From: Desulfovibrio sp. JY
Lineage (GTDB): Bacteria; Desulfobacterota; Desulfovibrionia; Desulfovibrionales; Desulfovibrionaceae
Assembly: GCA_021730285.1 (NCBI GenBank)
Contig: CP082962.1
Coordinates: 2,356,001 to 2,420,000 of the forward strand
Length of the DNA stretch: 64,000 nt
Reading direction: 5' to 3'
Made by a program: the position numbers and the translations under genes. Below are positions 18,604-55,400 of the stretch, piece after piece; position 1 is the first letter of the stretch; every line of letters begins with the position of its first letter. The notes under the pieces are model-generated. The model saw only the letters and a list, made by a program, of their open reading frames with translations, searched no databases and was not told where the DNA came from.

Positions 18604-19869
18604 TTACGCCTTTTGCGCGTCGTAGAGGGCCAGACGCTTTTTGAGCGAAGCGTAGAACTTCGTGGTGGTCCGGTTCATGGATTCGAGCACGGTCGGCATG
18701 ATGGGCTGGCCGCCGCCCATGACGCAGCCGCCGGGGCAGGCCATGAACTCGATGAAGTGGTAGGGCGATTTGCCGGCCTTCACATCGTCGCAGACCTTGG
18801 CGAAGTTCTTGCCGCCGTTGACTACGGCCACTTTGACGTCGGTGCCGCCGATGTTGATCGTGGCTTCCTTGATGCCGTTTAAGCCGCGCACGGCCTTGAA
18901 GTCCCAGCTCTGGGGCGGTTTTTTGGTCAGGGCCTGGTAGGCGAAGCGCAGGGCTGCTTCCATGACGCCGCCGGAGACGCCGAAGATGGTCGCGCCGCCG
19001 GTGGATTCGCCCATGACCGCGTCGCGCTTGCCGTTGGCGATCTTGGGCAGGTCGATGCCGGCTTTTTGCAGCATGTAGGCCAGCTCGCGGGTGTTGATGG
19101 TGGCGTCGATGTCGCGGAATCCGCTGGCGTCCATTTCCGGCCGCATGCCTTCGAACTTCTTGGCCGTGCAGGGCATGATGGACACGGTGTAGATCTGCTT
19201 GGGCTCGTAACCGAGTTCCTTGGCCCCGTAAGTTTTGGCCAGGGGACCCATCATGCCGATGGGCGACTTGCACGAGGAGAAGTGCAGCAGCAGCTCGGGA
19301 TAGAAGGTCTCGGCGTACTTCTGCCAGCCGGGGCAGCAAGAGGTGAACTGGGGCAGGGGCTTGTCGAGCTTTTTGGTGATGCGGGCGAGAAGCTCGGAGC
19401 CCTCTTCCCAGATGGTGACGTCGGCCGTGAACTCGTTGTCCCAGACATTGGAGAAGCCAAGCTTATTGAGCGCCGTGAGCATGTGCTCGGTGGTGACCGC
19501 GCCGAGCGGCAGGCCGAAGGGATCGCCCAGGGCGTAGCGCACGGCCGGGGCCGGCATGGCGATGACCTTGACGTTCTTGTCCTTGAGCTTGGCCTCGATC
19601 TCCGGGACGAAGGACACGGTCTCGTAGATGGCCGCAACCGGACAGTGGGTGAGGCACTGGCCGCAGTTGATGCAGGCGGCCGGGTCGACCACCTTGTGTG
19701 GCTCGCCGGATTCGCCGGTGATGGCCCCGGTCGGGCAGTAGCCCATGCAGGTGTCGCAGCCGATGCATTTGGTCTCGTCGACCTGGACGATATAGGCCTT
19801 GTCCAGGTTCGTGCCCGGAGGCGGCACGCTTTGTTCGTAGAAGATTTTTTCCATCTCGATGCGGCTCAT
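18604..19869 (-). CDS. hydA: Periplasmic [FeFe] hydrogenase large subunit
   Basis: The 421-residue enzyme interconverts protons and H2, in this group mainly oxidising H2 and passing electrons to periplasmic cytochromes c. Two [4Fe-4S] ferredoxin motifs ([24 protein letters not shown]) precede the H-cluster motifs: [16 protein letters not shown] and [18 protein letters not shown]. It has no signal peptide; export depends on the Tat signal of HydB. Length equals that of D. vulgaris HydA. An in-frame TTG at 19875 was rejected in favour of the ATG at 19869, which has GGAGG at proper spacing. Maturases HydEFG are not recognisable in the window, apart from a divergent HydE-like protein at 53 kb. 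Confidence 0.96.
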
Positions 19870-20031
19870 ACGCAACCTCCAACGGTTAGATGGGTTACCC
19901 TTGCGGGCGGGTTTTCAGGAAAGCGGGGGGACGGCGCGTTCCGAAGGGTTCGCGTTTTCCCCCGGCGGTGGTGCCCAGCTTGCAGGAAAGGATTGCTGCA
20001 CATATGTTAAAAAATAGTTTACTTAAAATAG

Positions 20032-45869: not shown

Positions 45870-47267
45870 CTACCGGCCCAGTTCGAGAGCGCCGCTTTTT
45901 TTGAGGCGCGTTAGCAGCGTGTCGTTTGGGGCTTTGGCCATGCGGGGGGATTCGGCCTGTTGGAAGGCGGCCAGGATCATGCCGCAGAACTTGTCGCCCC
46001 TGTAGACTTCCACGCGGAAGATGGAGCCGTCCTTATCCACGGAGTAGCCGGATTGGAGGTCGGCGCGGGCGAGGGTGATGCCGGCTTCGTCGTCGTGGCC
46101 GGGCTTGGCGTAACCGATGACGTTGACGCGGTAGTCGTGGGTTGGTTCGACGGCAAAGGAGTTGGCCACATTGACCACGCTGCCGAAGGGCACGGTGCGC
46201 TTCGTGCCGTCGATGGTCATGGGCACGGCGTCGAGGCTGGTGTCGTAGTCGAAGTATTGGGGGTCGAGTTCGGTCACGTTCTTGTTGCCGAAGTAGACCT
46301 TGAGGCTTTTGTCGGCCGAGACCAGGGCCATGATCGGGCTGCCGGGGCGGTATTCCACGGCGCTGCCCTTTTTGAGCGGGATGTAGCGCAGGCGGGCGCG
46401 GGCGTTTCGCAGGTCCAGATAGACCTTGTTGTCGAAAAACGAGACGTCCACGTTGCTTTGCAGGGCTTCGGCCACCTGTTTGGTGTCCAGGGGAAAGGTG
46501 CGCTCGAATTCGATGCCGAAGGATTTGAGGAAGCTCTCGACCACGGCCAGGTGGTAGTAGGCGGACATGAAGGGGGTGATGTTCTTGCTGCCTTCGATGC
46601 CGAAGGCCGGCTTGCCGTGGTTGATGGCGAAGTAGGTGAGCGTCTTCGACATTTCCTTGGCGGTTTCGTCGCTCAAGTCGTGGGTGTGGGTGTTTTTGAC
46701 GTGGTAGGCGTGCAGTTCCTCGTAGAGGTGCTGGTTGGCGTCGTCCACGGCCTTTTGGGCCAGCGCCTGGAGATCGCCGAAGCGCGCGCCGGGAACGCTG
46801 GTCTGGTCGATGATGACGGACTGGCCCCAGCGCGCCGGGCACTGCCAGTCGGAGACGTAGGTGGGGCTGTAGTAGCCCCAGCCGTCGTGCAGGTGGAGCA
46901 CGACGTCCACGCGCTTGTCGGTGATGATGGCCTTTATTTTCTGGATGGCCTCGTATTCCGGGTCCTTGGGGTCGAGGTCGGCGAACTTGCGGTTCATGTC
47001 GCCGTGCATGCCGCGCGAGTTGTGGATGATGGACAGGAAGTTGAGGTTGGGCACGACCCAGACCGCGCCGGTTTTGATCTTGTAGTGCGACACGAGCAGG
47101 GCGGCGGTGTAGAAGCCGCCGGGCTCGTCGCCCTGGATGCCGCCGATGACGAGTATGGTCGGGCCGGGGCGGCCGGATTCGAGCTTGTGGAGCGTAAAGT
47201 CGAGATTGCCGCCGAAGGCGGTCGATGCGAAAGCCGAGAGGAGAAGCGCGATCAGGATGGAACGCAT
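45870..47267 (-). CDS. Csd4/Pgp1-like peptidoglycan D,L-carboxypeptidase (M14/M99)
   Basis: The 465-residue protein has a Sec signal peptide (cleavage about residue 19-20) and a zinc carboxypeptidase domain. The zinc-ligand motif is GGIQGDEPGG, with Gln45 and Glu48 in place of the usual His-x-x-Glu, and His127 in LHLHDG. NSRGMHGDMNRKF and FGIEGSKN (catalytic Glu) follow. A Gln ligand is the hallmark of Helicobacter Csd4 and Campylobacter Pgp1, which trim tripeptides to dipeptides in peptidoglycan and set helical cell shape. A C-terminal beta-rich part (about 270-465) matches that layout. It may help give the vibrioid shape (inference). Confidence 0.82.
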   Translation of the reverse strand: MRSILIALLLSAFASTAFGGNLDFTLHKLESGRPGPTILVIGGIQGDEPGGFYTAALLVSHYKIKTGAVWVVPNLNFLSIIHNSRGMHGDMNRKFADLDPKDPEYEAIQKIKAIITDKRVDVVLHLHDGWGYYSPTYVSDWQCPARWGQSVIIDQTSVPGARFGDLQALAQKAVDDANQHLYEELHAYHVKNTHTHDLSDETAKEMSKTLTYFAINHGKPAFGIEGSKNITPFMSAYYHLAVVESFLKSFGIEFERTFPLDTKQVAEALQSNVDVSFFDNKVYLDLRNARARLRYIPLKKGSAVEYRPGSPIMALVSADKSLKVYFGNKNVTELDPQYFDYDTSLDAVPMTIDGTKRTVPFGSVVNVANSFAVEPTHDYRVNVIGYAKPGHDDEAGITLARADLQSGYSVDKDGSIFRVEVYRGDKFCGMILAAFQQAESPRMAKAPNDTLLTRLKKSGALELGR

Positions 47268-49295: not shown

Positions 49296-50501
49296 TTACG
49301 CGCCGAAAAGCGCCTGCTCGAAATAGGCGTAACCCTTTTCCACGGCGTACTCGTAGGGCATGTCCCAGTTGAACCGGGCGCTTAGGGCGATATGCGGCAC
49401 CGGGACGAAGCGCGCCTTGCGGGTGAGCAGGGCTTCGTAGCACGGGTCGGCGACAATGAAATCCACGGCCGGATCGTTTACGCGCTCGGCAATGGCCTGC
49501 TCGGCGTCGGTGTCCAGGTCGCGGGGACCACGGGCGGCGAGAACGCCCCGGCAACCGGGCGCGTCGGCAAAAAGCGCTTCGGACGGCGTCACGGACACCA
49601 CGTCCACCTCGGGCAGGCCGAAATCATGGCGCATGCAGTGTTTGATGCCGTAGCTGACGACCGGCTCGCCGACGACCAGGGCGCGACGAAACGGCGCGGG
49701 ACGCGCCGGGGGCGTCGCCGGGGTTGGGGAACGTCCTTCCAGCAGGGCCAGGACGTCGGCCAGTCCCTGCCGGCCGACCGGCAGGCCGACCACATAGGGC
49801 GTGCCGTAGGCGGCCTGCATGCGCGCGGCCAGGGCCAGGCCGCTGGCCGAGACCACCAGGTTGACGGCCGCTTCCGGGGCCTCGCGTACGGCCTGGAGCG
49901 GATCATCTTGGCCTGGGCGGGCCACGGAAAAGACGCTGACCAGGGCATAGCCGGCTTGTTCAAGGGCCGTGAAAAGCGGCTGGATATGTTCCGGCTTGCC
50001 CGTGGACAGGTGGATGGCCCCGAGCACGTTCAGGCTTTTTTCCCGCTTCCTTGTCGGCGGGACCATGAATTTGTCGGCCAGAGCCAGAAACGCCTTGGAC
50101 GCGCCCTCGGGGTAGGGTTCCGAACCGGCCGTCGGCACCATGAAGACCGGCAGCCCGGTGCGGGCTTCCAGGGTGCGGGCGAACCCCTTGAGGTCCGTGC
50201 CGATGATCTCCGAGATGGGCGTGCCGGCCAGGGCGATGAATCGGCGGTCGAGCTCGGTCGCCACCTTGGCGATGTTGTCGATGAACTTGTCCTCGTTGCC
50301 GAGGATGACGTCCATCTCCAGCAGTCCGGCCCCGACCACGGTGGCCGGTCCGCGGTACCAGCGCGGCTCGTCCTCGATATTGATGTGCCAGGCCCCGCCG
50401 GCCGGGCCGTAGATCACCACCAGCCCATCGAAATCGTACAGGGCCGAACTGACGCCGAAATAGCCTGTGGCCAGGGGCAGAAGCTTGTGGAAGATTTTCA
50501 T
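49296..50501 (-). CDS. Nitrogenase component 1-like protein, NifK-like
   Basis: The 401-residue protein belongs to the NifD/K/E/N-BchB superfamily. An early GVSSALYDFDGLVVIYGPAGGAWH corresponds to NifK around its second P-cluster Cys, and LAGTPISEIIGTDLKGF to the region of its third. Both cysteines are absent (GPAGGAW and GTPISE), so this subunit seems unable to supply thiol ligands for an interface cluster. A central Rossmann half follows (LNVLGAIHLSTGKPEHIQPL), then a second (RRALVVGEPVVSYGIKHC). It is the last gene of the operon, 24 bases after the NifD-like gene, with GGAG before the ATG. Confidence 0.82.
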   Translation of the reverse strand: MKIFHKLLPLATGYFGVSSALYDFDGLVVIYGPAGGAWHINIEDEPRWYRGPATVVGAGLLEMDVILGNEDKFIDNIAKVATELDRRFIALAGTPISEIIGTDLKGFARTLEARTGLPVFMVPTAGSEPYPEGASKAFLALADKFMVPPTRKREKSLNVLGAIHLSTGKPEHIQPLFTALEQAGYALVSVFSVARPGQDDPLQAVREAPEAAVNLVVSASGLALAARMQAAYGTPYVVGLPVGRQGLADVLALLEGRSPTPATPPARPAPFRRALVVGEPVVSYGIKHCMRHDFGLPEVDVVSVTPSEALFADAPGCRGVLAARGPRDLDTDAEQAIAERVNDPAVDFIVADPCYEALLTRKARFVPVPHIALSARFNWDMPYEYAVEKGYAYFEQALFGA

Positions 50502-50525
50502 GTCTCCATCCTTGCGCTGTCGGGC

Positions 50526-51824
50526 TTAAATGAGGAACTGGCGCCGGTAGATCCAATCGTGATTGCTGACCGGATGGGCCATCGCCTGCCGGGTCTCCTC
50601 GAGCATCCACACGGCGTTTTCGTAGCCGTAGTGCTGCTCCTGGTAGCGCGACAGGGGCACGTTGACCGCCTTGGCGCAAAACATGCCGGCGTCCACGCCG
50701 TAGGCCACGTCCACATGGTCGAAGGCGGCCGTCTCGCCGCACAGGTTCGGGTGGGAGACGTTGTAGACCCGGATGTGCGGCGCGACCTCGCGCAGGCGTT
50801 CGATGAGCTTCCATTCGTAGGGCTTGAAGGTGCCGCGCCCGAAGATGGTGTCCACCGTGAGCCCCGCGTCCACGAAAGCCAGGGCCAGCTCATAGGGGCT
50901 GCCGTTGATCGCGCCGCCGATGGCGATGGTCTTGCCGCGAAGGGCGTCGAGGAGCGGTCCGGCAGCTTCCCGGGCGGCCTTCTCGGCGGCGGTCGTGTCC
51001 AGGTCGCGGCCGAGGGCCTCGCCGATTTTGGCGTACTGGGCGGCGATGGCCCCGAAGCCGTAGGCCGTGGGCACGAAGAGCGACGGGATGCCCAGCTCCT
51101 TTTCCATGCGTCCGGCCATGCCGTTGGCCAGCGGATGCAGCACCAACGAATGCCCGGCCGAAGCCATGCGGGAGAACTCCGCAAGGTCGGCGCAAAGGGG
51201 AATCTGGGTGAGGCGCGACACGCCGGCCGCCCGCAGCACGTCGTAAAATTCGCCGTCCGGGGAAAGCGGCATGAAGGTGCCGAGCAGATTCACGGCGTCG
51301 GGATCGGGATGACGCGGCGCGTCCTTTAAGAACTCGTAAAACGAGGTGTAGGCCGAGGTGAAGGGCGATTCCTTGAGTCCGATGGTGATGGGGGCCATGG
51401 CCCCGAGGATGACGCGGCGACCGGTCGCGGCCGTGAGCCGTTCGAGCACGCCGGTGAAATCCGTGCCCAGGATGTAGTCCGGACAGCCGACGATGAGGAA
51501 AATGGCCTTTTCCGGCCGGGTGGCCGCGATGTCCCGCACGGCCTTCTCTATCTTTTCCAGGTGCCTGCCCATGGTCATGTCCACTTCCTCGAGGCACAGC
51601 ATATAGAAGCGGTCGCCGAATCCTCGGGCATGGGCCATGAAGGCCGAGTGGCGCAGACAGGCCGAGGGCCCGGCCATGATGGAAAGCGACTCGGGCAAAA
51701 GGAGCGAGGTCTCGATGACGCCCCAGCCGGCCAGGTTGGGGCCCACGCCCTCCAGCGGCGCGAAGGGGAAATCCTCCCGTCGCGTGAGCCGCGCCATCTC
51801 GATCGAGGCTTGTGTTGCGCGCAT
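50526..51824 (-). CDS. Nitrogenase component 1-like protein, NifD-like
   Basis: The 432-residue protein belongs to the same superfamily. MAGPSACLRHSAFMA (Cys56) aligns with the NifD segment HGPVGC, and IVGCPDYILGTDF (Cys114) with the third P-cluster Cys. The first P-cluster Cys is missing; Cys77 (YMLCLEEVDM) could substitute. With its NifK-like partner lacking cysteines, a cluster held mostly by this subunit is likely, recalling BchNB, where one subunit gives three Cys. C-terminal motifs include GGAINGSPYELALAFVDAG and VYNVSHPNLCGET. The frame is open to 51932; the ATG at 51824 has AGGAGA upstream. Confidence 0.82.
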   Translation of the reverse strand: MRATQASIEMARLTRREDFPFAPLEGVGPNLAGWGVIETSLLLPESLSIMAGPSACLRHSAFMAHARGFGDRFYMLCLEEVDMTMGRHLEKIEKAVRDIAATRPEKAIFLIVGCPDYILGTDFTGVLERLTAATGRRVILGAMAPITIGLKESPFTSAYTSFYEFLKDAPRHPDPDAVNLLGTFMPLSPDGEFYDVLRAAGVSRLTQIPLCADLAEFSRMASAGHSLVLHPLANGMAGRMEKELGIPSLFVPTAYGFGAIAAQYAKIGEALGRDLDTTAAEKAAREAAGPLLDALRGKTIAIGGAINGSPYELALAFVDAGLTVDTIFGRGTFKPYEWKLIERLREVAPHIRVYNVSHPNLCGETAAFDHVDVAYGVDAGMFCAKAVNVPLSRYQEQHYGYENAVWMLEETRQAMAHPVSNHDWIYRRQFLI

Positions 51825-51908
51825 GGCGTTCTCCTGCGGATGTGGAAAGGTCGGTTGCATGATTGTTGCGAGGAAATAGTCGGTTAAAAAGTTTAGGAAG
51901 GGGAGAGC

Positions 51909-51950
51909 GCGAGAGGGGAGAACCCTTTGCAAAAGGGTTTCCCCTCTCGC
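51909..51950 (-). repeat. Terminator-like hairpin inside the nitrogenase-like operon
   Basis: GCGAGAGGGG-AACCC arms form a strong stem between the NifH-like stop and the NifD-like start. On the minus strand it is followed by GCTCTCCCCTTCCTAAACTTTTT. It is the same unit as at 15952 and 63685. It may lower expression of the last two genes relative to the NifH-like one. Confidence 0.7.
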
Positions 51951-51963
51951 ATCGCTCCTTTCC

Positions 51964-52710
51964 CTATAATCCCATCATGGTCCGGGCGAGGTTGCGGAAT
52001 TCGAGGGACGTCGGCAGTCCGGGGTCGCCTTCCACGATAGTCTTGCCTTCTTCCTCGAAGGTATGGATGGCCCGGTCGCGGGGGATGACGCCGAGGATGG
52101 TGGTGTCCATTTTCGCGGCGAAATCCTCCACCCGGGCCTTCTCGTCGGCCATGTCGCGGCAGTTGAGGATCAGGCCGCCGAGCTCGGCGTAGTGGCGGTC
52201 GGCGAAATGGCGCAGGGCCAGGATGATGTTGCGGGCGGCGAGCAGGGCCATTTTCTCGCCCGAGGTGACGATGGCCACCTTGTCGGCAAAGCCTTCGCGC
52301 ATGGGCACGGCGATGCCGCCGCAGACGATGTCGGCCAGGATGTCGTAGAGCACCACGTCCGGGGCGTAGGTCGCGTAGGCGTTCATTTCTTCCAGCAGCT
52401 CGAAGGCGGTGAGCATGCCCCGGCCGAAGCAGCCGACGCCGGGCGTGGGGCCGCCGACCTCCAGGCAGGTGGCGCCGCCGAAACCGGTGCGGGCGATCTC
52501 GTCGAGGCTGGCCGGCCGGCCGTGTTCCTGGAGGTATTGCAGGATGGGCGGCGGGGTCAGGCCGCGCAGCAGATTGATGGTGGAGTCGGTTTTGGGGTCG
52601 CAGCCGATCTGCATGACCTTGCGGCCCTCGAGGCTCAGGGCGGCCGAGAGGCTCGAGGTCACGGTGGATTTGCCGATGCCGCCCTTGCCGTAGATGGCGA
52701 TCTTAATCAT
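51964..52710 (-). CDS. NifH-like iron-sulfur ATPase
   Basis: The 248-residue protein is a NifH/BchL/CfbC-type reductase that hydrolyses ATP to pass low-potential electrons to component 1. It has P-loop [14 protein letters not shown] (residue 8 on), DPKTDST, Cys94 in PGVGCFGRG and Cys130 in [17 protein letters not shown]; the two cysteines of each monomer bind a [4Fe-4S] cluster between subunits. It is shorter than NifH (about 290) because the C-terminal extension is missing. The ATG overlaps the radical SAM gene by 8 bases and AAGGAG is upstream. Confidence 0.93.
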
Positions 52711-53716
52711 GCGCCGCTCCTTGCATCTTGAGGGAATCGCCGCGACTGGAGCCGATCGTGCGCCCGGCGCGGGCCAGCACGCTTTTCGCCTCGTCGACGG
52801 AGACGTACCGTTTCTTGGTGGTGATCTGGAATTCGTATTCGATCTTGTCTTGCCTGCTTTGCACGAAGGGGTTGCAGTTGGGCATGATGACGTTGGCCCC
52901 GCCCTGGACGAGCGCCCGGTACTGCCCCTGGTCGGGGTCCAGGGTGGCGACGGTATTGGCCGCCGCCAGATGGGTGTTTCGGGTCACGATACGGGTCAGG
53001 GCGAAGACGCGCAGCATCAGCTCGATGTCGCCGGCCGGCTCGTCCCCGAGCGGCGTGCTCCCGTCCGGAATGAACGGCCCGATATTGACCATGTCCGGCT
53101 GGAATTCCTGGAAAAAGAGGATGTCGTCGGCCAGATCGTCCAGGGTCTGGCCGGGCAGGCCCACGATGTTGCCGACGCCGGTCTGATAGCCCAGGGCGCG
53201 GATTTCCTTCAGGGCGCGAAGCCGCGCGTCGAGGCTGCGGCCGGGGCGCATCCGGGCGTAAAGCTCCGGGTTCATGGTCTCGTGCTTCATGAGGTAGCGG
53301 CCGGCCCCGGCGTCCCGGAAGGCGCGCAAATCGTCCGTCGAACGCTCGCCGAGGCTCAGGGTGACGGCCACGTCGGCCTTATCGAGAATCCGGCCCAGGA
53401 TGGAGCAGACCCGCTCCCGGGTGTAGTAGCCGTCCTCGCCGGATTGGAGGACCACGGTGCGCAGCCCGGCGGCGGCGATGGCCAGCGCGGTCTCCACGAC
53501 CTGGTCCTCGGACATGCGAAAGCGCTTGATGGTGCGGTTGCTTTTGCGCAGGCCGCAATAGAGGTCGTCGCACGAGCAGTGGTTGGAAAAATGCACCACC
53601 CCGCGCAGTTGGGCCTCGTCGCCGCAATACTCCCGGCGCACGCGGTCGGCTTCGGCAAAAAGCGTTTCCCCGGCCGCCGGGTCGCGAAGGGCGTCGAGAA
53701 TATCCCGTTTGTTCAT
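52703..53716 (-). CDS. HydE-like radical SAM protein with CxCx4C motif
   Basis: The 337-residue protein is a radical SAM enzyme of the HydE/BioB branch: [50 protein letters not shown] and [18 protein letters not shown] match HydE closely. In HydE the cluster motif is Cx3Cx2C; here the middle position is Asp51 and an extra Cys lies at 49, giving Cys47-x-Cys49-x4-Cys54. The nucleotides (TGC TCG TGC GAC GAC CTC TAT TGC) are unambiguous. HydE makes part of the H-cluster, but no HydF or HydG is adjacent, so it may build a cofactor for the operon's own proteins. Confidence 0.88.
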
Positions 53717-53738
53717 GGCCGCATCCTTTGTCCCCCGC

Positions 53739-55400
53739 TTATTTCACGTTGCTGCTTACCACGCGTCCGGTGTCGCCGTCCTCGATGCGCAGCACGCAGG
53801 CGTTGCAGGGGTCGAATGTGTGAATGACGCGCGTGAGTTCCAGGGGATTGGCCGGGTCGGCCAGCGAAATGCCCCGCAGGGCCAGTTCCAGGGGGCCGAG
53901 GGTCCCGTCGCCGCTTCGGGGGGAGAAGTTCCAAAGCGAGGGCACCAGCGCGTCGTGGGCCACGATCCGCCTGTCCCGCAGGCGGATGCGGTGCACGAGC
54001 GCCCCCCGGGTGAGTTCCGCCAGGCCGATGCCCTCCCCGGCGTCCGGCAGCGTAAAGGCGGCCTGCAAGGCCGCGTTCCCCTGATCCAGGCAGCGGTCGA
54101 GGTCGCCAAGCCAGGTCGTGGCGGAGCGGATGCAGGCCACGGCCTCGAGCCCCCGGGCCAGCACGCGGCCGATGGTGGAATTAAGCGCCGCAAGCGGCAG
54201 ACCGAGCGTCGCCAGGGCCGCGTCCGCAAGCTCCCGGACCATGGCGTTGCCGCGTCCGTAGGCTCCGACAATGCGGGCCACGGGGCCGACCTCGCAGGCC
54301 CGTCCGGCATGGCGGGGCGCGCTGAACCAGCAAAAATCCTCGTTTCGCCAGTGGTAGGTCGTTTCCCCCGGGCCGAAGCGCAGCCGGTAGCGGTCCTTGT
54401 CCGGTTCGGCCCAGCCCGGGTCCGTCTCGTCGGAGACCGCTTCCGGGCTGGCCGGCCCGGCCTGGACGGTGTCTTTAACCGTGAAGACGCCGCCCGGGAA
54501 AAGGGCGTCGCCGCCCTCCGGGCCGGGGAACTCCCCCCAGGACAGAAAGGCGTCGGAGCGGCCCACGGCGGCCCAGTCCTTATAGATGCCGCCCACGAGC
54601 AGGACATCGGGCAGCAAGGTGTCTTCGATAAATTGCCGGCACTCGTGCAAAAGCGCCGCGCACTCGGCCCGCGCCGCCGGGGACAGGTCGGGATTGCCGC
54701 CGCCAGTCAGGCTGGCGCTTTGGGGAAGCCCTCCGACATGCCAGGTGGCGCTGGCCGCCAGGGTGCCTTGCAGGATCGCCTGGGCCCGGCCCAGCTTCGT
54801 CCGGATTTCCATGGCCGGCTGGACATGGCTCAAAACGAGCAGACAAGCTTCGGGGGAGGCGGCATAGGCCGGGTGGTCGCCGCCCGCTGTGGAAAAAGGC
54901 GCGCCTTTCTCCGCCGAAGCCAGGGCGGCGAGACGCTTTTGCGCCTCGTCGAAAAACCGGGCCTCGGCCGTGAGGCTGGGGTTGCTTTCGCGGGCAAGCG
55001 CGGCAGTCTTTTCGGGCGTCGCCCGCAAGGCGGCGGCCAGGCTCAGCCAGTCGCCCGCATAAAACAGGTAGAAGAAGGTGAGGTGGTCGAGGAGAAACTG
55101 CAACGCGTGGGCGATGTTGCGAACCAGGAGGGCGGATTCGGGCAGGCGTATGTCGATAAGCTGTTCCAGGGCCCGGGTGGCGGCCAGGGCATGGCCGGCA
55201 TTGCACAGGCAATGGGGGCGCTGGGCAAAGAAGGATTCCTCCCCGGACAGCGTCGCTCCCAGCAGATAATTCATATTCTGGATCATCTTCCCCGTGCTCC
55301 AGGCCTCCACCACCCGTCCCTGGCTCAAAAGGACGCTGATGATGAAAAGATTCCCGTCACACTGGGCGATGTCGGCGTTTTTTTCGGAGGGTAGCGACAT
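53739..55400 (-). CDS. [NiFe]-hydrogenase large-subunit-like protein, divergent
   Basis: The 553-residue protein follows the [NiFe] large-subunit fold. The N-terminal motif RxCGxCxxxH appears as RPHCLCNAGHALAATRALE: Cys66 and His70 keep their places, but the first Cys is His63 with Cys64 beside it. The C-terminal motif is DPCNACVLR (Cys532, Cys535), followed by a 15-residue tail as in unprocessed precursors. TRGALVHRIRLRDRRIVAH matches the conserved RGLLxH segment, but the RIEGH motif is lost. No small subunit or hyp gene is near. It heads the operon, 22 bases before the radical SAM gene. The start is uncertain (GTG at 55442 also possible). Confidence 0.8.
   Translation of the reverse strand: MSLPSEKNADIAQCDGNLFIISVLLSQGRVVEAWSTGKMIQNMNYLLGATLSGEESFFAQRPHCLCNAGHALAATRALEQLIDIRLPESALLVRNIAHALQFLLDHLTFFYLFYAGDWLSLAAALRATPEKTAALARESNPSLTAEARFFDEAQKRLAALASAEKGAPFSTAGGDHPAYAASPEACLLVLSHVQPAMEIRTKLGRAQAILQGTLAASATWHVGGLPQSASLTGGGNPDLSPAARAECAALLHECRQFIEDTLLPDVLLVGGIYKDWAAVGRSDAFLSWGEFPGPEGGDALFPGGVFTVKDTVQAGPASPEAVSDETDPGWAEPDKDRYRLRFGPGETTYHWRNEDFCWFSAPRHAGRACEVGPVARIVGAYGRGNAMVRELADAALATLGLPLAALNSTIGRVLARGLEAVACIRSATTWLGDLDRCLDQGNAALQAAFTLPDAGEGIGLAELTRGALVHRIRLRDRRIVAHDALVPSLWNFSPRSGDGTLGPLELALRGISLADPANPLELTRVIHTFDPCNACVLRIEDGDTGRVVSSNVK

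Follow-up and report, generated by a model that had tools for sequence, protein, structure and literature searches.

A nitrogenase-like operon with a HydE-family protein in Desulfobacterota, a candidate HydG-independent route to the [FeFe]-hydrogenase cofactor

What would hold together, in one operon, a nitrogenase-like reductase, a relative of the radical SAM protein HydE and a homologue of the large subunit of [NiFe]-hydrogenases? The question is raised by positions 49296-55400 of the window, the whole stretch of 64,000 nucleotides of Desulfovibrio sp. JY analysed here. Its minus strand carries there five intact genes, coding for the large-subunit-like protein (LS*), the HydE-family protein (HydE*), a NifH-like ATPase and NifD-like and NifK-like proteins (Table 1). 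The preliminary description had proposed this layout: open reading frames and gaps match it exactly, and Pfam supports the families it named (NiFeSe_Hases, Radical_SAM, Fer4_NifH and, twice, Oxidored_nitro).

Table 1. Features of the operon, with positions in the window
Feature	Position	Strand	Remarks
LS*, [NiFe]-hydrogenase large-subunit-like, 553 aa	53739..55400	-	Pfam NiFeSe_Hases, E 3.5e-103
LS* N-terminal metal motif H63-C64-L65-C66	55203..55214	-	Corresponds to C72-G73-x-C75 in D. fructosovorans
LS* C-terminal motif C532-N-A-C535	53796..53807	-	Corresponds to C543/C546
LS* to HydE* spacing		-	22-base gap
HydE*, 337 aa	52703..53716	-	Pfam Radical_SAM, E 4.9e-18
HydE* radical-SAM motif C47-x3-D51-x2-C54	53555..53578	-	Canonical form C-x3-C-x2-C
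HydE*/NifH-like overlap		-	8 bases
NifH-like ATPase, 248 aa	51964..52710	-	Pfam Fer4_NifH, E 5e-77
Intergenic region nifH-like/nifD-like	51825..51963	-	139 bases; perfect long hairpin
NifD-like component-1 subunit, 432 aa	50526..51824	-	Pfam Oxidored_nitro, E 5.9e-27
NifD-like to NifK-like spacing		-	24-base gap
NifK-like component-1 subunit, 401 aa	49296..50501	-	Pfam Oxidored_nitro, E 8.4e-26

A conserved unit and its proteins

All five genes are under purifying selection, with dN/dS values of 0.08-0.37 against a neighbour genome where NifD is 97% identical. The order LS*-HydE*-NifHDK was found at 11 loci including that of the window, one being cut by a contig end. This recurrence at ten other Desulfovibrionales-type loci bears out the earlier view of a conserved unit, and the arrangement is therefore not due to chance. 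Three of the 14 carriers have HydE*-NifHDK without LS* (G123, G124 and G125, from the Desulfofervidaceae and a Desulfobacterales metagenome-assembled genome, MAG), and a distant variant in genome G475, its NifD 25-29% identical, also has no LS*; this rules LS* out as a core part of the system. The deepest members lack LS*. Distribution of the operon is patchy: at E 1e-10 it is matched in six of 119 relatives, in one case by a partial match of only 27% identity, and in a phylum sample seven of the 395 genomes have it. The hairpin in the gap between the nifH-like and nifD-like genes is stable (-50.1 kcal/mol, z -4.87), its motif occurs once within the window and its stem is retained in the sister genome; Rfam and tRNA scans of the window gave no match.

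HydE* passes the cut-off of the NCBIfam HydE equivalog TIGR03956 (276.2 bits for 254.6 required), as do its counterparts in all 12 carriers tested. Its nearest solved structure is Thermotoga maritima HydE (E 1e-78), and the HydE* sequences make up a single monophyletic clade, with a support of 100/100. The middle residue of the radical-SAM motif is aspartate in 14 of 14 HydE* sequences, and cysteine in every canonical HydE compared. As judged from its sequence, HydE* belongs to the HydE family but departs from a standard HydE in its motif, where C-x3-D-x2-C replaces the canonical arrangement.

The NifH-like ATPase displays a P-loop and both [4Fe-4S] cysteine motifs (GVGC and DIVCGG), its closest solved structure being NifH (1cp2). 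The predicted fold of the NifD-like subunit matches VFe, FeFe and MoFe proteins, NifEN, the protochlorophyllide reductase DPOR and MarD with Z scores of 24-27; it has few P-cluster ligand matches and no recognisable FeMoco ligand match. The NifK-like subunit has no N-terminal cysteines, and in the alignment a GGAWHIN-EDEPRWYR block is invariant. By curated cut-offs, supplemented with profile searches of the PDB and comparison of folds, the component-1 proteins lie outside every curated nitrogenase-superfamily family tested, a point in favour of the first interpretation. None of the NCBIfam curated cut-offs is passed by the NifH-, NifD- or NifK-like proteins. For nitrogenases of Groups I-III, NifH reaches 277 of 394 bits and the NifK-like protein 16 of 427, the NifD-like protein has no NifD match, and nifB, nifE and nifN are absent from the operon. 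NifEN acting with NifH is a parallel in using a component-1 homologue as an assembly site, and NifE is the best, weak, HMM match of the NifK-like protein; however, the operon has neither NifB nor NifD/K partners and scores 30-52 of 505 bits. CfbCD (Group IV) and DPOR (BchLNB) likewise employ a NifH-type ATPase, in order to reduce a biosynthetic precursor instead of a nutrient. Yet the operon falls far below their cut-offs (274 of 402 bits for CfbC and, among BchL/N/B/X/Y of the DPOR/COR Group V, at best 187 of 345 for BchL and 30 of 420 for BchN), it has two component-1 genes against a single CfbD, and no tetrapyrrole context was recognised at the operon. A comparable organization is that of MarHDK and IsrHDK (Group IV Nfl), which associate NifH, a heterodimeric component 1 and a radical SAM partner; searched with the NifD-like profile, MarD scores best among solved structures (E 4e-19, with only 78-326 aligned). 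That partner is NifB-like (MarB) or BciD-like (IsrB), whereas that of the operon is HydE-like, and the passages covered give no hyd or hyp context for these methylthio-alkane and isethionate reductases.

The predicted model of LS* has the overall fold of [NiFe]-hydrogenase large subunits (Z 37.5, 475 residues aligned, rmsd 2.9), and no small subunit gene lies in the vicinity. Three of the four cysteines of the L1 and L2 motifs are kept (C66, C532, C535). The position of the terminal nickel ligand C72 varies among H, C, A and S across eight homologues, in which C64 and C66 (C75 in D. fructosovorans) are invariant. Ligand mapping further establishes that the iron-bridging cysteines and cyanide-pocket residues are retained, and that one nickel ligand, the proton-gate glutamate and the cleavage-site histidine have been lost, the C-terminal extension remaining. 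LS* is the first gene of the operon at every Desulfovibrionales locus where this is visible and the fastest evolving of the five, with 34-52% identity versus 62-84% for HydE*, NifH, NifD and NifK. Since the iron and cyanide sites are kept while the nickel ligand, proton gate and cleavage histidine are gone, the pattern fits a putative carrier of an Fe(CN)2CO unit, for which HoxV/HupK provide a precedent (PMC12134894). These are also large-subunit homologues with iron and cyanide ligands, not expected to hold nickel and associated with HypC/HypD. LS* differs from them in its full length with retained C-terminal extension, in its new invariant cysteines C14, C64, C254 and C369, and in going with [FeFe]- rather than [NiFe]-hydrogenase genes.

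Neighbours of the operon and the hydrogenase maturases of its carriers

The most constant neighbour is hydF, which adjoins HydE*-NifHDK in six genomes (G033, G119, G120, G121, G123 and G124) as well as the G475 variant. We know of no role for HydF other than assembly of the H-cluster, the cofactor of [FeFe]-hydrogenases. Random placement would put hydF within 5 kb in about 0.5-0.8% of cases per genome; it was seen in seven genomes, from several lineages and with differing gene orders. Frequent additional neighbours at these loci are aspA, hydA/hydB and hypC/D/E/F, and the TM1266 regulator is also found. As cases in point, the order is aspA-hydF-LS*-hydE*-nifHDK-hydA-hydB in G120, hydA-hydB-TM1266-hypE-hypC-aspA-hydF-hydE*-nifHDK-hypF-hypD in G123 (labels confirmed against curated cut-offs) and hydA-hydB-TM1266-hydE-hydF-nifHDK-nifHDK-hypF-(hypC)-hypD-hypE in G475, with no hydG there. 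A linked pair of NifHEN-like copies, as in G475, has been reported by Dos Santos et al. 2012 (PMC3464626) for the gut Lachnospiraceae Coprococcus catus and Dorea longicatena. In the window genome and its sister, the operon is located away from hyd and hyp genes.

Genes of the hyp family adjoin the operon at eight loci. They are also required for [NiFe]-hydrogenases, which exist in the same genomes, so that this proximity is not exclusive to the operon. The idea that the operon-linked hypD is always a special paralogue was discarded: the Desulfovibrionales copies resemble the ordinary one, and only G475, which has a second hypD-hypE pair elsewhere in its genome, supports the idea.

Among the 12 carrier genomes tested, all have HydA and HydF (11 HydF sequences exceed the cut-off; in the remaining genome a contig end truncates the gene), and just two have an intact HydG. 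The ten others include G033, 99% complete, and G060, a single contig 100% complete; in G037 about 320 codons of hydG have been deleted in frame. Several carriers are draft MAGs whose completeness is uncertain. In eight of the 12, HydE* is the sole HydE. The window genome and G011 combine the operon with intact HydEFG, and the window genome and its sister encode complete HydE, HydF and HydG elsewhere. Two members of a single genus contrast in this respect: G020 encodes hydG-hydE-hydF without the operon's NifD, and G060 shows the opposite; in G475, no HydG was found in the 1.26 of 2.9 Mb searched. The operon resembles the HydE/HydF/HydG system in that, in carriers, it adjoins the genes for HydF, AspA, TM1266 and HydA/HydB and includes a member of the HydE family, but it differs from it by the loss of HydG in most carriers, with NifHDK-like, hyp and LS* genes instead.

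Absence of HydG alone does not mark the system: this was ruled out by 12 HydA-bearing relatives lacking both HydG and the operon, three of which have HydE and HydF, and nine none of HydE, HydF and HydG. A gene of about 680 codons following TM1266 in HydG-less relatives was considered as a maturase and set aside, its product resembling, by eye, a TonB-dependent outer-membrane receptor.

A possible route to the H-cluster, and its rivals

Linkage to hydF, hydA, hydB, aspA, TM1266 and hyp genes, seen for the most part where an intact HydG is lacking, leads us to think that the operon is probably an accessory or alternative route to the [2Fe] part of the H-cluster, doing the job of HydG. In the standard pathway HydG provides CO and CN, reduction and dimerisation being the task of HydE (PMC12752695). 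From the neighbourhoods and co-occurrences seen in the genomes we infer the following chemistry. Starting from carbamoyl phosphate, Hyp proteins would build an Fe(CN)2CO unit, which LS* might hold as HoxV does; the NifH-like ATPase would push low-potential electrons through the NifDK-like pair, and this pair could reduce the iron and/or supply or exchange CO. HydE* would subsequently reduce and dimerise the units, before HydF, with ammonium derived from AspA, completes the cluster and passes it to HydA. Alongside the HydEFG of the window genome, the operon would serve there as a second route, meant for a particular condition or hydrogenase. That the route combines all three elements, Hyp-made Fe-CO/CN, an ATP-driven nitrogenase-like complex for the low-potential step that is normally left to HydG/HydE chemistry, and a HydE variant with an Asp-ligated C-x3-D-x2-C cluster, is a tentative proposal, somewhat less than an even bet. 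The H-cluster has one CN per iron and the Hyp iron has two, a stoichiometry with no simple fit that counts against the proposed route; HydEFG in the window genome and its sister, the loss of HydG in operon-less relatives, the draft state of several carriers and the absence of LS* from the deepest members weigh in the same direction.

Involvement of a metallocofactor, as first surmised, is very likely. The preliminary description had an enzyme in mind, with HydE* building a new metallocofactor on LS* or the NifDK-like pair, used to reduce an unknown small molecule; on such a view, proximity to hyd and hyp genes would only reflect a common need for hydrogen or iron chemistry. The complete fold and nucleotide and cluster motifs retained by the NifH-, NifD- and NifK-like proteins suit this view, as do Mar and Isr, which show that an Nfl enzyme working with a radical SAM protein can be catabolic. 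However, LS* is missing from three of the 14 carriers and from the variant, no gene adjoins the operon more constantly than hydF where HydG is absent, and no substrate-specific gene was recognised alongside the operon. We hold this reading to be unlikely, cofactor assembly for [FeFe]-hydrogenase being the better one. A little less unlikely is a role of HydE*/NifHDK in activating, repairing or re-reducing the H-cluster or its HydF-bound precursor; where HydG is absent, CO and CN would then have some unrecognised origin. NifH-type ATPases do re-reduce or activate other low-potential centres, the operon coexists with intact HydEFG in two genomes, and the operon-less relatives with HydE and HydF suggest that another source of CO and CN may exist; yet where HydE* is the only HydE it must be at least the HydE, and such a role leaves the hyp genes without a reason.

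HydE* and NifHDK might also be dedicated to LS*, maturing it as a modified [NiFe]-type enzyme with no small subunit through alteration of its Fe(CN)2CO centre. The leading position of LS* in Desulfovibrionales operons, its iron and cyanide ligands and the adjoining hypC/D/E genes would agree, but HydE*-NifHDK goes without LS* in Desulfofervidaceae and Desulfobacterales, and LS* evolves fastest and has lost its nickel and proton-transfer residues, making this explanation improbable. Finally, patchiness of distribution and the remoteness of the window copy from hyd genes could evoke a mobile operon clustering, by chance or selfishly, near hydrogenase genes of Desulfobacterota. We give this hardly any credence, in view of the frequency of hydF linkage relative to random placement.

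To our knowledge, the CO and CN ligands that the [FeFe]-hydrogenase cofactor carries come from HydG alone. In the open-access literature searched, no paper relevantly connects HydE/F/G to nitrogenase-like proteins or to NifH/NifD, and the place of these genes beside those for H-cluster assembly, usually where HydG is missing, suggests an undescribed mode of synthesis of the cofactor. If true, a second route drawing on the [NiFe] pathway and on a motor of nitrogenase type would connect three families of metallocofactors so far regarded as separate, and account for HydA and HydF in HydG-less sulphate reducers, Desulfofervidaceae included. It would also assign a role to a nitrogenase-like group that is as yet uncharacterised, and provide a new set of enzymes for producing [FeFe]-hydrogenases. 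Escherichia coli has Hyp proteins and no Hyd maturases, a background that makes the proposed route testable there. Aspartate within the radical-SAM motif would by itself be a surprise for that superfamily.

The operon and its relatives

The five open reading frames and the spacing attributed to them proved exact on re-examination, and Pfam and NCBIfam bore out the family label of each protein, that of the HydE-like radical SAM protein being an understatement, since the curated HydE cut-off was passed. The NifH-, NifD- and NifK-like proteins passed no curated NCBIfam cut-off. The predicted structure of the NifD-like protein (mean pLDDT 84.5) has a whole component-1 fold, about equidistant from V, Fe and Mo nitrogenases, NifEN, DPOR and MarD (Z 24-27, 12-20% identity). 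Against the nearest genome (the sister), all five genes are under purifying selection, weakest in the large-subunit-like gene (dN/dS 0.37; 0.08-0.18 in the other four). The gap between the nifH- and nifD-like genes holds a perfect, very stable hairpin (-50.1 kcal/mol), a possible processing or attenuation element, of which the sister keeps the stem with a different loop.

A search for the gene order in other genomes had been called for; whole-locus comparison found all five genes in the same order in eleven genomes, including the window's own and one (L024) in which a contig end cuts the large-subunit-like gene. Two Candidatus Desulfofervidaceae and one Desulfobacterales MAG have the order without that gene. 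NifD-like matches are rare: six rows at E 1e-10 among 119 relatives, window genome counted, and seven in a sample of 395 genomes from the phylum. One of the six, in G009, is a partial match at 27% identity and belongs to another nif-like locus. Nine loci, two of them already in the set, came from scanning 84,980 species genomes for two exact peptide patterns only.

Linkage to [FeFe]-hydrogenase genes and the place of HydG

In Desulfofervidaceae, hydA, hydB, a TM1266 regulator gene, aspA and hydF precede the operon's hydE-nifHDK, with hypE/hypC before and hypF/hypD after, and curated cut-offs confirm every label except hydB. Similar associations recur in Desulfovibrionales (see table). In G125, hydA-hydB-aspA then hydF end one contig and the operon's hydE-nifHDK then hypC open another. 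By chance, hydF would fall within 5 kb of these genes with a probability of some 0.5-0.8% in each genome. The preliminary description, in which the radical SAM protein served a metallocofactor for reduction of some substrate, was partly right: from the observed linkage to hydF, hydA and hyp genes, the likelier function is H-cluster maturation. The operon is most likely a HydG-independent module for this process, absent from the literature searched.

Features and gene orders (LS, large-subunit-like gene; hydE(op), HydE gene of the operon)
Genome	Position (strand)	Feature or order
Window	49296-55400 (-)	Five-gene operon
Window	51825-51963	nifH-like/nifD-like gap with hairpin
Window	18604-19875 (-)	Full-length catalytic gene of an [FeFe]-hydrogenase, 423 aa, with motifs (25 protein letters not shown); 30 kb from operon
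Window	45870-47267 (-)	Peptidase_M99 (Csd4-type cell-shape carboxypeptidase) gene adjoining ABC1/UbiB-like kinase gene, in a sulphate-reducer-type genome (Pfam)
G060	C1:2335459-2336610 (L096)	Divergent HydF-family protein, the second in this genome (355 bits), distant from the other hyd genes
G037	L090 2697-3158	HydG remnant, 153 aa
G513	L131 8778-9544	nifH-like gene split over two overlapping frames (real frameshift or possibly sequencing error)
G120		aspA-hydF-LS-hydE(op)-nifHDK-hydA-hydB
G121		hydA-hydB-TM1266-aspA-hydF facing LS-hydE(op)-nifHDK-hypC-hypD-hypE
G119		aspA-hydF-LS-hydE(op)-nifHDK
G033		aspA-hydF-LS-hydE(op)-nifHDK-hypD-hypE
G400, G513		LS-hydE(op)-nifHDK-hypD(-hypE)
G475		hydA-hydB-TM1266-hydE-hydF-nifH1D1K1-nifH2D2K2-hypF-...-hypD-hypE

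Curated models for HydG, HydE, HydF and [FeFe]-hydrogenase were run on twelve carriers, several being drafts of unknown completeness. All twelve have [FeFe]-hydrogenase (PF02906), with H-cluster cysteines kept in the sequences inspected beside maturation loci, and all have HydF (the G125 copy, cut by a contig end, at 323.5 vs 325.55 bits). Of the twelve, the window genome and its sister alone have HydG above its cut-off, and in eight carriers the operon HydE is the only HydE. G033, without HydG above cut-off, is 99% complete; G060, a single contig 100% complete, has a canonical HydE, and its best HydG match (372 aa) was rejected, lacking the HydG C-terminal part and resembling ThiH. Opposite sets occur within one genus, G020 having hydG-hydE-hydF without the NifD-like gene and G060 the operon without HydG. 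The G037 remnant, which has intact aspA, hydE and hydF as neighbours, joins the first ~139 HydG residues in frame to the last ~16, with ~320 internal codons deleted.

To be sure, 15 of the 49 relatives with a PF02906 match have no HydG above cut-off, and only three of these have the operon. Three others (G024, G046 and G054; L117, L118 and L120) have canonical HydE and HydF with neither HydG nor NifHDK-like proteins. In the remaining nine, namely G015, G026, G056, G057, G066 and G118 (L107, L108, L110, L111, L112 and L115) with G109, G039 and G068, HydE, HydF, HydG and the NifHDK-like proteins were all undetected, HydA keeping its H-cluster cysteines where checked. Several of the nine show hydA-hydB-TM1266 followed by a TonB-dependent-receptor-like gene. 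With twelve HydG-less relatives free of the operon, HydG loss alone is thus not diagnostic; the case for a maturation module rests on the hydF/hydA/hyp linkage and on the operon HydE as only HydE. The window genome retains HydEFG, so its operon may act as a reserve route or for a single hydrogenase.

Metal ligands and a proposed route

The operon HydE forms one clade (support 100/100) in which all 14 members carry aspartate where the radical-SAM motif has its middle cysteine; an extra cysteine adjacent to this aspartate is not conserved, and C281 (MPNCNPF) is a new invariant one. Aligned with the D. fructosovorans large subunit, whose numbering is used for the shared positions, the large-subunit-like protein is invariant at C75, C543, C546, R476 and S499, varies at C72 (H/C/A/S), lacks E25 and the cleavage-site histidine, and has new invariant cysteines C14, C64, C254 and C369 (its own numbering). 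In the established structures, C75 and C546 are the bridging ligands to iron, C72 and C543 the terminal nickel ligands, and R476 and S499 the residues holding the cyanides. Thus the large-subunit-like protein looks capable of binding Fe(CN)2CO, though not nickel in the normal way, a predicted likeness to HoxV, a large-subunit homologue shown by experiment to hold this unit (PMC12134894). NifD-like proteins have invariant C56, C114 and C383, with cysteine at position 77 in Desulfovibrionales only, and NifK-like proteins have no cysteine in the N-terminal part, so that any cluster would have to be ligated in an unusual manner, perhaps like that of DPOR.

HydG converts tyrosine to Fe(CO)2CN(Cys), HydE reduces and dimerises this product, and HydF adds the dithiomethylamine bridge (PMC12752695), the ammonium coming from AspA (PMC11736057); HypC-F make Fe(CN)2CO (PMC12130793, PMC12134894). 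For the carriers we infer every chemical step: Hyp would provide the iron-diatomic unit, the large-subunit-like protein, where present, would carry it, the NifHDK-like proteins would perform an ATP-driven low-potential step (iron reduction, CN-to-CO exchange or CO2-to-CO reduction), and the operon HydE with HydF would complete the cluster. The open literature yielded nothing relevant joining HydE/F/G with nitrogenase-like or NifH/NifD proteins; Clostridium acetogens without typical HydG are reported and left unexplained (PMC9431212), and uncharacterised NifHEN-like clades, some as two linked copies, are described by Dos Santos 2012 (PMC3464626).

A distant variant

G475 has two nifHDK sets, whose component-1 proteins share just 25-29% identity with the NifD-like protein of the window. 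Its HydE, HydF and HypE exceed curated cut-offs, a weak hypC match adjoins hypD, and its HydE has the normal C-x3-C-x2-C motif. No HydG was found in the 1.26 of 2.9 Mb searched. Another hypD-hypE pair is encoded elsewhere, as is a [NiFe] large subunit of group-4 type, so the operon's hypD/E pair looks dedicated. The association of NifHDK-like proteins with HydA/E/F and Hyp is therefore independent of any one sequence clade.
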